The notes beneath the pieces are model-generated. The model did no database searches. It was not told the origin of the DNA and saw only the letters and a list, made by a program, of their open reading frames with translations. Positions 819 to 9,237 of a DNA stretch of 64,000 nt are shown here, in pieces. This DNA is from Trigonopsis variabilis. Lineage: Eukaryota; Ascomycota; Trigonopsidomycetes; Trigonopsidales; Trigonopsidaceae. Each line of letters opens with the position of its first letter. The stretch's first letter is position 1. The stretch covers positions 62,001 through 126,000 of the forward strand of contig PPXM03000004.1 of NCBI GenBank assembly GCA_003707065.3. Direction: 5' to 3'. The position numbers and the translations under genes were made by a program.

Positions 819-2579
819 ATGTCGTCTGAAATTAGTCGTACCGAGGTGTCCAAGGCCTACGATGACGCCAAAGATTTTGAAGAGCCCGTGTCGGTCGACA
901 CTGAGAAGGGCCAGATTGCGCTGACCACGCGCGGAGGGTTCATGGGATGGATAGACACGTTCAAGCCCCAGCCGCCTCGAATGGTGATCAACCCCATCAC
1001 TGGCGAGCTGGAGGAGATCCAAGAGACTCCGCAGCTCAAGCGTCGTCTCAAGGGACGTCACTTGCAGATGATTGCCATTGGTGGCTCCATTGGCACCGGT
1101 CTGTTTGTGGGTTCTGGTTCCGCGCTGGCCACTGGCGGCCCTGCCTCGCTGATTATCGACTTTTTCATCATTGGCATCATGTTGTTCTGTACCGTCCACG
1201 CTCTTGGTGAGCTCTCGGTCACCTTTCCTGTCGCGGGTTCGTTTGCCCAGTTTGGCTCGCGAATGTTGGACCCCGCCTGGGGCTTTGCCATGGGTCTGAA
1301 CTACGCCCTTCAGTGGTTTGTTGTCTTCCCGCTCGAACTCACGGCCGCGTCGTTGACCATCCAGTACTGGCCTGGCGCGCAGAGCGTCAATCCGGCTGCC
1401 TGGGTGGCCATTTTCTGGACCACCGTCGTTGTCATCAACTTTTTTGGTGTCCGCGGGTACGGTGAGGCCGAGTTTGTGTTTTCGTTTATCAAGGTGATTG
1501 CTGTTTGTGGCTTTATCATTCTCGGAATCATCCTGGTCTGCGGTGGCGGTCCCGACGGACACTATATTGGTGGCCACCACTTCTACGACCCGGGTGCGTT
1601 TGCCTATGGATTCAAGGGTCTCTGCTCGGTCTTTGTCACGGCCGCGTTTGCTTTTGCCGGCACTGAGCTGGTCGGGTTGGCTGCTGCCGAGACTCAGAAC
1701 CCCCGCAAATCTCTGCCCACGGCCACCAAGCAAGTGTTCTGGCGGATCACCTTGTTTTACATCATCTCGTTGCTTTTGATTGGCCTCTTGGTTCCCTACA
1801 ACGACCCTCGACTGTTGAACGGAACCTCGTCTGCCGACGCCAAGGCCTCGCCCTTTGTCATTGCCATTCGAAACGCTTCTATTCCCGCCCTGCCCTCCAT
1901 CATGAACGTGGTCATTATGATCTCTGTCCTCTCGGTCGCCAACTCGTCTGTCTATGCGTGCTCGCGAACGCTGGCGTCGCTGGCCAACCAGCGCATGTTC
2001 CCCTCCATCTTTGGCTACATTGATAGAGAAGGCCGTCCCTTGGTCGGTATTGCCTTCACCTGCATGTTTGGGCTCCTGGCCTTTATCGTGTCTGCCGGAA
2101 GCGACACCGAGACCCAGGTCTTCAACTGGCTCCTGGCCATCTCGGGTCTGTCGTCCATCTTCACCTGGGGCTCCATCAACCTTTGCCACTTGCGATTCCG
2201 TCGCGCGTGGAGAATCCAGGGCCACTCGTTGGACGAGCTGCCTTTCAAGTCCTACGGCGGTCTCATTGGCTCGTGGCTCGGCTTCATCATCAACTGCCTC
2301 GTCCTCATTGCCCAGTTCTGGACCGCCGTCTGGCCCATTGGCGAGAAACCCAACGCCGAGACCTTCTTTGAGGCGTATCTTGCTGCTCCTGTCGTCTTGG
2401 TTTCATATGTCGCCTGGAAGATCTGGTTCCGCCCGGGCTTTGTCCGCGCCAAGGATATGGATCTTGTCACGGGACGACGGGAGGTCGACGTCGATGCTCT
2501 CATTGCCGAAATCAAAGCAGAAAAGGAAGAACTTCGCAAGAAGAACTTTTTTATCCGAGTTTATAAGTTCTGGTGTTGA
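819..2579 (+). CDS. Amino-acid permease, YAT/AAP family (GAP1/AGP1-like)
   Basis: Intronless gene for a 586-residue plasma-membrane amino-acid/H+ symporter. After a hydrophilic N-terminus of about 85 residues, the stretch HLQMIAIGGSIGTGLFVGSG opens TM1, as in the yeast amino-acid transporter family, and about twelve hydrophobic segments follow. The protein ends in Phe-Trp-Cys. That FWC end is the palmitoylated C-terminus of yeast permeases handled by Pfa4/Shr3-type factors. Which amino acids are carried cannot be read from sequence; a broad-range GAP1/AGP1 type is the best guess. Codons end mostly in G or C, unlike most neighbours but similar to RPL7, which suggests high expression rather than transfer. 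The GATA-rich upstream region suggests nitrogen regulation. Confidence 0.93.
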   Translation: MSSEISRTEVSKAYDDAKDFEEPVSVDTEKGQIALTTRGGFMGWIDTFKPQPPRMVINPITGELEEIQETPQLKRRLKGRHLQMIAIGGSIGTGLFVGSGSALATGGPASLIIDFFIIGIMLFCTVHALGELSVTFPVAGSFAQFGSRMLDPAWGFAMGLNYALQWFVVFPLELTAASLTIQYWPGAQSVNPAAWVAIFWTTVVVINFFGVRGYGEAEFVFSFIKVIAVCGFIILGIILVCGGGPDGHYIGGHHFYDPGAFAYGFKGLCSVFVTAAFAFAGTELVGLAAAETQNPRKSLPTATKQVFWRITLFYIISLLLIGLLVPYNDPRLLNGTSSADAKASPFVIAIRNASIPALPSIMNVVIMISVLSVANSSVYACSRTLASLANQRMFPSIFGYIDREGRPLVGIAFTCMFGLLAFIVSAGSDTETQVFNWLLAISGLSSIFTWGSINLCHLRFRRAWRIQGHSLDELPFKSYGGLIGSWLGFIINCLVLIAQFWTAVWPIGEKPNAETFFEAYLAAPVVLVSYVAWKIWFRPGFVRAKDMDLVTGRREVDVDALIAEIKAEKEELRKKNFFIRVYKFWC

Positions 2580-6905: not shown

Positions 6906-8151
6906 CTAATTTTGGGCCTTGATAAGGTCATTGATCTTGTCCTCGCGATCACCGAGAGAACCACCCTCGATGAAGTGCTTGAACTTTCGGCGGACACCCC
7001 AACCTCCAGAGGGGTTGGACAGCTTGAAGGGCCAGAGGAAGTTGGCGGCTTGCTTGAAGTTGGGTCCGACGGTGTAGATCTCGTGGATGAGATCCTCAAT
7101 ACAGATGATACCGTATTTGCCGAGGCTCTCCTCGATGATGGCGTTGTCGGTGAGGGCAGTTCGCTGACCGTTGACTTTACCGTAACCTCGCTTGTAGATG
7201 AGAGATCGAACGGAGGAAAGGTTGGGGTAGCCGTAGGCAATGTAAGGCTCGACGATTCGGAGCATTTCAATGGTGGCCTTGGTAGCCTTGATGAAGACAC
7301 CGTTGTTGATTTGCAACAATCGCAAAAGCTGGAGAATCTTTCGAGGCTTAGGGGCGATCTTGTTGATACCCTTGATTCGGACGGCAAAGATCAGTTTGGG
7401 TTGGGCAGGAACGTAGTATTCGCCCTTGGACTTGGCAAGTCGGCGAAGACGGACCTCCTCCTTCTCGGCCTCGAGGTACTCTTGGACGTACTTCTCAGCG
7501 CGAGTGAAGATCACCTCATTCTTCTTCTTGAGGGCCTAACCTGGTTAGTCGAACGAAGGCAATCGATAAACTTGAGTGACCTTTGCAATCAATTGTCAGC
7601 CCCGAAAGATGGTTAACGATCGACATCATCGCTTGAAAAGCTAGCCGTATACAATATATGTTCACATCACCCATACAAAGGTCACTCGATGGTGTTTGAC
7701 TTACCTCCTTCTTGGCAGCAGCAGCGGCAATCTTCTTCTCACGAAGTTGATCCTGAGTCTTTCGCTTCTTGAGGATGTTTTCGGGAACTTGAGCACTACC
7801 AATGTTAGTTTTCTCTTTGCTTAAAGATCCATGGCAAAAAGGTGAAGAAATCCAACCCAAGACTTCCCGATATCATTAATCCAAGTTGAAATTCTTTCAA
7901 CAAAGACAAAACCCGTTCAGATGAAATCATCTGAAAGGATGATCTTATAGGTCCCAGAACCACTTGAACACTGCATGAACGGAAAACCGTTCACGAGGAG
8001 GATCCTTCACAGACCTATAAGGCTCATTTATTTAAGACAAACAAGTTCACCAGGAACTTCTGAGTCCAACACATTTTCACTTATTCTCGTGAAAATAACC
8101 TAGTCCACCGGAATATCCATCACCCACCGCCGAATAAAGCACTCACGCCAT
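6906..8151 (-). CDS. RPL7: 60S ribosomal protein L7 (uL30), host of an intronic snoRNA
   Basis: Three exons (8147-8151, 7705-7795, 6906-7535) give 241 residues. uL30 is a large-subunit ribosomal protein. [54 protein letters not shown] and [17 protein letters not shown] match yeast Rpl7 almost residue for residue. The first exon is only ATGGC; the second supplies the basic N-terminal arm. The introns are 351 and 169 nt, far larger than the 32-45 nt usual in this window. The second encodes a C/D snoRNA and the first is full of perfect hairpins. Codon usage is strongly biased, as expected of an abundant protein. A HomolD box lies 65 bp upstream of the ATG. A 261-codon open frame on the other strand is a shadow. 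Confidence 0.96.
7574..7687 (-). ncRNA. Intronic C/D box snoRNA, snR39/snR59/snR39B family
   Basis: The snoRNA lies inside RPL7 intron 2. A perfect 12-bp terminal stem pairs 7676-7687 with 7574-7585. Reading the minus strand, box C is GTGATGT at 7670-7664 and box D is CTGA at 7599-7596; a C'-like ATGATGT is at 7629-7623. The bases just before box D read ACCATCTTTCGGG, then one G. This is a 13-nt exact complement of the conserved 25S rRNA segment CCCGAAAGATGGT. In S. cerevisiae snR39 and snR59 sit in RPL7A and RPL7B introns and guide Am807 there, while free-standing snR39B guides Gm805. The D+5 rule applied here points to the G805 equivalent. Family and host are secure; the exact ends and modified base are inferred. 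Confidence 0.88.
7885..8096 (-). ncRNA. Hairpin-dense segment of RPL7 intron 1 (unidentified structured RNA)
   Basis: This segment of the 351-nt first intron of RPL7 (7796-8146) holds five perfect inverted repeats. They are: 8073-8080/8089-8096 (8 bp); 8043-8048/8054-8059 (6 bp); 7944-7953/8012-8021 (10 bp), which encloses 7976-7982/7987-7993 (7 bp, AAAA loop on the plus strand); 7916-7924/7927-7935 (9 bp); and 7885-7891/7895-7901 (7 bp). An ATAAGA that fits the H-box consensus follows the large hairpin on the transcribed strand, but I find no ACA box at the right place. It may be a divergent H/ACA RNA or a splicing-control element. The function is unknown. Confidence 0.45.
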
Positions 8152-8223: not shown

Positions 8224-8636
8224 TCATGGACCGCCAGGGTTTGCAGTGCTGTGTACGGTGGTCACCTTGCTGCCCTGCCCATGGTTACCATCAACTTTTC
8301 CGTCGCCTCAGCTTTTGATATCGCCAGTAGATATAAAGGTACGGACTGCTTTAGTATAAATATAGAGAGATATACCCTTGCTCTCGTGTATTATGGCCCG
8401 TCATTGGAGTTATAAGTATATGATGGCACCACCACGCTTGCCCTGAATCCTTACCCTAAGGACGCTTCTGGTAAGTTAAGGAGTCGTTACTGGCAGTGAT
8501 TATCAATTCTTCCAATTGTTCCGTCTGTATCAGATATGAAGACAATCGTTATTTAAAGTTTCAGCCTTGTATGAGCCAGATTAGTCTGTCGTTGACGTAT
8601 TTCTAACTTCAGATGGTATGTTACCTTTATTTCCCT

Positions 8637-8737
8637 GAGGTTTAATGATGATTGAATTCGACCGGGCGGACATATTCATTGGTCTTCACCCGTCAGGGTA
8701 GTCGTCTCCAACTGTACAATTGGATACTGAAGGCCTC
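8637..8737 (+). ncRNA. Candidate C/D box snoRNA
   Basis: Box C ATGATGA is at 8645-8651 and box D CTGA at 8727-8730, 75 nt apart. The flanks GAGGTTT (8637-8643) and AGGCCTC (8731-8737) can form a 7-bp terminal stem with two G-U pairs, placed directly outside the boxes as in C/D snoRNAs. I could not match the bases upstream of box D to a remembered rRNA target, and no clear C'/D' pair is visible. It is therefore a candidate only. Confidence 0.35.
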
Positions 8738-9237
8738 TGTTGATGAATGGTCGCACTGATACCTCAACCTGGTTTTGAACATTGCTAATCTCAATAGTGC
8801 TGCTAGGCGAAAGAGGCGTCTTTTTGTAGTAGTAAGTGATGCTGCTGGCTCAATGATGACTATTTTATTCACACTGTTTGATCTATAATGATTTTTTCAA
8901 AATACTGATTTAATGACTCTGAGGGCCTGTTCATTGGATTCTCTAACCTCTTAGATGGCTTTTATGTAAATATTTGAATAACATGGGCGTTAATGATAAA
9001 TAAACTACAGTGGAAATGACCGATGACTGAACGTATGGAATGCGTAGACTCACCTTTGAGAAGGAATCCTTTGTATTGCCAGTTTCTTGAGAAGTGTATG
9101 TACAAGTATCTGGAGCAGCTCTATCCGTAGATCAACTGTCAGTAAAAAATCGGTTTCTGGAATCTTTCTTTCTCCCACCGTTACACTTCATCGTGACTCG
9201 AGCAAGATTAAGAGCCATCCCCAAGCTAATCCGGTCA

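Follow-up and report, generated by a model that had tools for sequence, protein, structure and literature searches.

Known systems close to the RNA considered here include snR39 and snR59 of Saccharomyces cerevisiae, small nucleolar RNAs (snoRNAs) encoded within the second introns of RPL7A and RPL7B, for which A807 is the reported target, among other sources in PMC2806949. RPL7-intronic snoRNAs have been published since 2007 from orthologous loci of ascomycetes and basidiomycetes, and the position of the RPL7 intron is retained in 82% of fungal species. According to PMC2806949, positions 792-810 of the 25S rRNA cover the pairing sites of both snR39/snR59 (Am807) and snR39b (Gm805). Work considered for comparison also includes PMC5295604, PMC8476143, PMC2246297, PMC3890542, PMC2653536, PMC9606315, PMC5640933, PMC8216456 and PMC6171561.

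Outside the budding yeasts, one relative is CD47 of Neurospora crassa, which PMC2780460 lists in a table as an intronic homologue of snR39b with a D-box guide of 26S Gm785 (16 matches, 0 mismatches); the table contains no Am787 guide, but its authors do not claim that it is exhaustive. We take Gm785 to be the equivalent of G805, because the offset between the two numberings is a constant 20 at the snR60 and snR72 sites (Am797, Gm888 and Am856). A footnote in PMC2780460 characterizes asterisked genes, including CD47, as database-annotated and undetected experimentally; the expression column of CD47 nevertheless reads N and R (northern, reverse transcription). The asterisked genes are CD38, CD42, CD47 and CD48, corresponding to snR61, snR52, snR39b and snR60, while the text names four Rfam-annotated N. 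crassa genes as snR39, snR52, snR60 and snR61. Since these two sets of four run in parallel, the N. crassa gene annotated as snR39 in Rfam is very probably CD47. In Trichophyton rubrum, the intronic TRnc_2265 was assigned to RF01197 with a target, 25S Gm808, predicted by Snoscan. We accept Gm808 as the G805 equivalent because the target is a G, but are less sure of it, as the U18 site (Am651, against Am649 in yeast) gives an offset of 2 where Gm808 needs 3.

The locus described here was found in the window, the whole 64-kb stretch of DNA that was analysed, which forms part of the searched assembly (15 contigs, 11.35 Mb). The host gene is RPL7, which lies on the minus strand and whose 3 exons join in frame to encode a ribosomal protein L7 of 241 amino acids. 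Among 120 relatives listed, the closest named one is the L7 of Lipomyces tetrasporus (83% identity), while those of Tortispora, Blastobotrys, Sugiyamaella and Yarrowia reach 76-78%; by this protein comparison, the source organism is therefore probably an early-branching Saccharomycotina yeast. Intron 2 (7536..7704, minus strand, 169 nt) was delimited by the in-frame joining of the exons, and its splice and branch motifs were read from the sequence: it begins with GTAAGT, ends with TTAG and contains GACTAACC, a branch-like site. The candidate snoRNA lies within this intron.

Two further observations were made in the surroundings. Intron 1 of RPL7 (7796-8146, minus strand, 351 nt) has a strong fold of its own (z -3.57, with 0 of 100 shuffles equally stable, for the stretch 7794-8146), and structured RPL7 introns have been reported in other fungi. 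Divergent from RPL7, the region 8471-8954 (plus strand) looks like the fungal snR41-snR70-snR51 cluster. Two of its members, snR41 (8490-8579, plus strand, 61.9 bits) and snR51 (8849-8924, plus strand, 57.4 bits), score above their Rfam cut-offs; snR70 (8641-8768, plus strand), between them, is sub-threshold at 22.4 bits against a cut-off of 55. Judged by eye from splice-like signals, each of the three sits in its own intron, and a 3-nt exon, ATG (8613-8615, plus strand), is implied between the introns of snR41 and snR70. Exons of a single base and of zero length are described for other yeasts in PMC5033589.

The sequence-only reading had placed a box C/D snoRNA at 7574-7687, and both these coordinates (minus strand) and the anatomy given for it were borne out, with two small corrections, on the last base of the C box and on the nature of the stem. 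The flanks form an outer stem of 12 Watson-Crick pairs between a 5' arm, GAGTGACCTTTG (7676..7687), and a 3' arm, CAAAGGTCACTC (7574..7585), identified by complementarity and folding. No longer perfect complement exists between these flanks, and none of 5000 mononucleotide shuffles of them reached 12 bp (longest 11). The snoRNA as a whole also folds more stably than expected: its z-score is -2.96, and of 200 dinucleotide shuffles only one was as stable. The C box is GUGAUGU (DNA GTGATGT, 7664..7670), in which the UGAUG core is intact and only the last base, U instead of A, departs from the canonical RUGAUGA; the D box is CUGA (DNA CTGA, 7596..7599). The molecule thus has the C and D boxes of a box C/D guide. 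Internally, a clear C' box, AUGAUGU (DNA ATGATGT, 7623..7629), is preceded by CUAGCUUUUCAAGC (7631..7644), which contains a CUAG and a small hairpin and aligns with the conserved CUAGC...GC of RF01197; the CUAG, all that is seen on the D' side, is a possible D' box. All of these elements are on the minus strand.

Some snoRNAs lack a terminal stem, and earlier work on them underlies the way in which we read the 12-bp stem. In the candidate, no canonical stem immediately at the C and D boxes is evident within 7574-7687. As the 12-bp stem sits 5 nt outside the C box and 10 nt outside the D box, it is more likely to be an intron processing stem than a part of the mature RNA.

The guide element is ACCATCTTTCGGG (RNA ACCAUCUUUCGGG, 7601..7613, minus strand), 13 nt that are exactly antisense to the conserved LSU rRNA segment CCCGAAAGAUGGU, the segment and the positions of G805 and A807 within it being those of yeast. 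Its length falls within the 10-21 nt expected directly upstream of a D or D' box, and a single G separates it (7613-7601) from CUGA. With two mismatches allowed, the host LSU segment had 0 matches in the assembly, and a sarcin-ricin-loop pattern had 0 with one mismatch allowed. Judged by these two short LSU patterns, the rDNA repeat seems either absent or withheld from the assembly.

Reading upstream from the D box, the five bases are G, G, G, G and C, and the fifth, C7604 (minus strand), faces the G of CCCGAAAG, which is G805 in the rRNA numbering that we assume from yeast. On that numbering, the RNA falls in the class of G805 guides, defined by a D or D' box whose fifth upstream base lies opposite G805, as is the function of snR39B and SNORD2. 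Because methylation follows the D+5 rule (PMC2780460) and C7604 faces this G, the predicted site is the equivalent of G805, as had been proposed from the letters alone.

We then considered how the candidate relates to described families. A covariance search with a 156-base query returned RF01197 (snR39) as its top Rfam match (7594..7674, minus strand; 28.9 bits, E 0.0012), so that the proposed kinship with the snR39 family held in rank, while the score stayed under the gathering score of 40. The next matches were TtnuCD19 (20.4 bits), SNORD2 (18.6 bits against a cut-off of 37, which does not make the candidate a member of RF01299) and three weaker ones, all under their own cut-offs. The RF01197 alignment spans not only the antisense element but also the segment from CUAGC...GC to the C' box. 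In a search of the whole genome with an E-value limit of 10, RF01197 matched four places, of which the highest-scoring, at an unrelated location (L001, 31.9 bits), was rejected, as it is without a D box and its antisense is broken. The same model also gave matches in 8 of 14 prokaryote controls. Because L001 scores higher than the candidate and these controls match as well, the bit score alone is no proof of membership, and the case for a putative snoRNA rests on its anatomy together with its location rather than on the Rfam score.

The consensus of RF01197 reads UUUCGGGGCUGA, which has the same G805 register as the candidate, and the register UUUCGGG-N-CUGA is common to the consensus sequences of RF01197, SNORD2 and Tetrahymena TtnuCD19. 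Against this reading of the RF01197 register stands PMC3511168, which assigns S. cerevisiae snR39/59, listed with the A site, to RF01197 and snR39B to RF01299. On balance, we consider the candidate to be a box C/D snoRNA of RPL7 intron 2 that guides methylation of the 25S G805 equivalent, in a register that is probably the usual one in fungi, and assign this reading a probability of about 0.88. In our judgement, it would be orthologous to the RPL7-intronic "snR39" of other fungi.

Two histories had been proposed for the mismatch with S. cerevisiae: either the intronic gene has switched target, or a single ancestral intronic RNA served the G805 site. A switch would require an ancestral intronic A807 guide that came to act on G805 in this lineage when its D box moved by two bases, and the reported targeting of A807 by the RPL7-intronic snR39 and snR59 of S. 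cerevisiae fits such an ancestor. We nevertheless consider it improbable and the switch unsupported, because the consensus of RF01197 already has the G805 register and the intronic relatives CD47 (Gm785) and TRnc_2265 (Gm808) list G targets; moreover, neither snR39 nor snR59 can reportedly be recognised in the Candida parapsilosis group (PMC5033589), which ill suits a widely kept A807 gene. The second history, an old intronic RNA serving G805, fits this evidence better. Given a G805 guide in this intron, the S. cerevisiae split between snR39/snR59 and snR39B looks derived, and an old intronic G805 guide is the more likely starting point. A specific version is more tentative, and we would sooner doubt than assert it: the fungal ancestor may have had an RPL7-intronic G805 guide, whose intronic copies in the Saccharomyces line then shifted register by two bases to act on A807 (snR39, snR59), with a free-standing copy, snR39B, taking over G805; we take snR39B to be a separate gene in S. 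cerevisiae. If true, this would be a case of snoRNA retargeting via D-box slippage inside one host intron.

Still less probable is an unusual register by which the RNA would target the A807 equivalent, alone or together with the G805 equivalent. The duplex does include A807, and in the conservation table of PMC11542601 the A807 row is filled in nearly all columns shown, yeast Am807 included. However, the A807 equivalent lies at D+7, instead of facing the D+5 base as in guides of the S. cerevisiae snR39/snR59 type; D+5 is the stated rule (PMC2780460), and the snoRNA sequence contains no D-like box two bases upstream of CTGA.

A search of the rest of the genome for another member of the family bears on both sites. 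The exact 11-base antisense core, ACCATCTTTCG, occurs at 4 sites in the genome, against 6 for a reversed control pattern. One of these is the candidate itself. Judged by eye, two others (L005, L006) are coding sequence and were rejected. The last (L008) lies between MAP-kinase-like and G-alpha-like frames and is complementary over 13 nt, in a register like that for A807; its locus (1440-1560, minus strand, G000:C10:270084) carries TCACCATCTTTCG upstream of the G-alpha-like frame, with weak boxes. It is reminiscent of human SNORD32. Given poor C, D' and D boxes and no support from Rfam, L008 was rejected as an A807 guide and kept only as a weak lead.

The A807-register pattern ATCTTTCGNNTGA was found at 15 sites against 5 for its control; all 15 were examined and none is plausible, as the antisense extends at most 2 bases further. 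With one mismatch allowed, CCATCTTTCNNCTGA gave 36 sites against 9, of which 30 were examined (the other 6 were without a locus). A C-like box lies upstream in 3 of these 30, each with a mismatch in the antisense pattern, and the best of the three (L127) was rejected as lying inside an open frame of 536 amino acids. Another rejected site (L111) pairs 11 bases in the A807 register, but has CUGG for CUGA and no C-like box was found. Among the genome sites examined (15 of 15 for ATCTTTCGNNTGA, 30 of 36 for CCATCTTTCNNCTGA), there is thus no convincing A807 guide. When up to two mismatches were allowed, the pattern for the G805 register had 104 matches against 56 for its control; of the matches listed, the exact ones were examined singly. 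Three of the four antisense pattern searches exceed their own controls, an excess that probably reflects base composition. An Rfam SNORD2 match (L141, 28.4 bits) was rejected for a mismatch at the base facing G805 and the lack of CUGA after its antisense copy. Among the antisense sites examined, which are the scope of this search, the candidate is the only finding that shows C/D architecture.

Scans for the antisense with a D box gave 5 stretches in viral contigs and 79 in genome contigs, the latter against an estimated ~120 expected in 257 billion random bases; 4 of the 84 have a C-like box upstream. That the candidate is a chance resemblance within an intron, and no snoRNA, is barely credible. 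In favour of chance, its Rfam score is sub-threshold, the genome has no excess of the antisense core over the control pattern, and the only other exact G805-register match listed, CATCTTTCGGGGCTGA (L147, rejected), lies opposite a 620-aa open frame of another gene and has no Rfam snR39 match. Against it, the boxes, an antisense directly before the D box, the outer stem and the known RPL7 position all coincide.

If expressed in the manner of its relatives, the snoRNA would be released from RPL7 intron 2 by splicing and then debranching, a route supported by Fusarium graminearum, in which a putative intronic snR39 drops upon deletion of the debranching enzyme. The 12-bp outer stem would bring the C and D boxes together, and the snoRNP would shield the RNA from exonucleases. 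The D-box guide would then pair its 13 nt with the 25S rRNA, and the methyltransferase would act at D+5, the G805 equivalent.

By itself, the candidate changes little; it adds one genome, probably that of an early-branching Saccharomycotina yeast, to the fungi with an snR39-type RNA in an RPL7 intron, and its register is that of a guide for G805. Compared by description only, snR39 and snR59 of S. cerevisiae likewise occupy the second RPL7 intron and differ by their reported target, A807. SNORD2/snR39B (RF01299), listed for the G805 site in PMC2806949 and PMC3511168, shares the UUUCGGG-N-CUGA register, but the SNORD2 model carries its guide in the 5' half, unlike the candidate. CD47 and TRnc_2265 are intronic and have a G target like the candidate, with a host gene that goes unnamed in the accessible parts of their sources. 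The snR39 of RF01197 and the candidate have in common the C box, the hairpin region with CUAGC, the C' box, the antisense and the register of the D box (ACCAUCUUUCGGGGCUGA), the candidate being shorter between the C box and the CUAGC element and scoring below the gathering score. The candidate looks like an ordinary, well-formed member of the known RPL7-intronic C/D type, with G805 as its predicted target.
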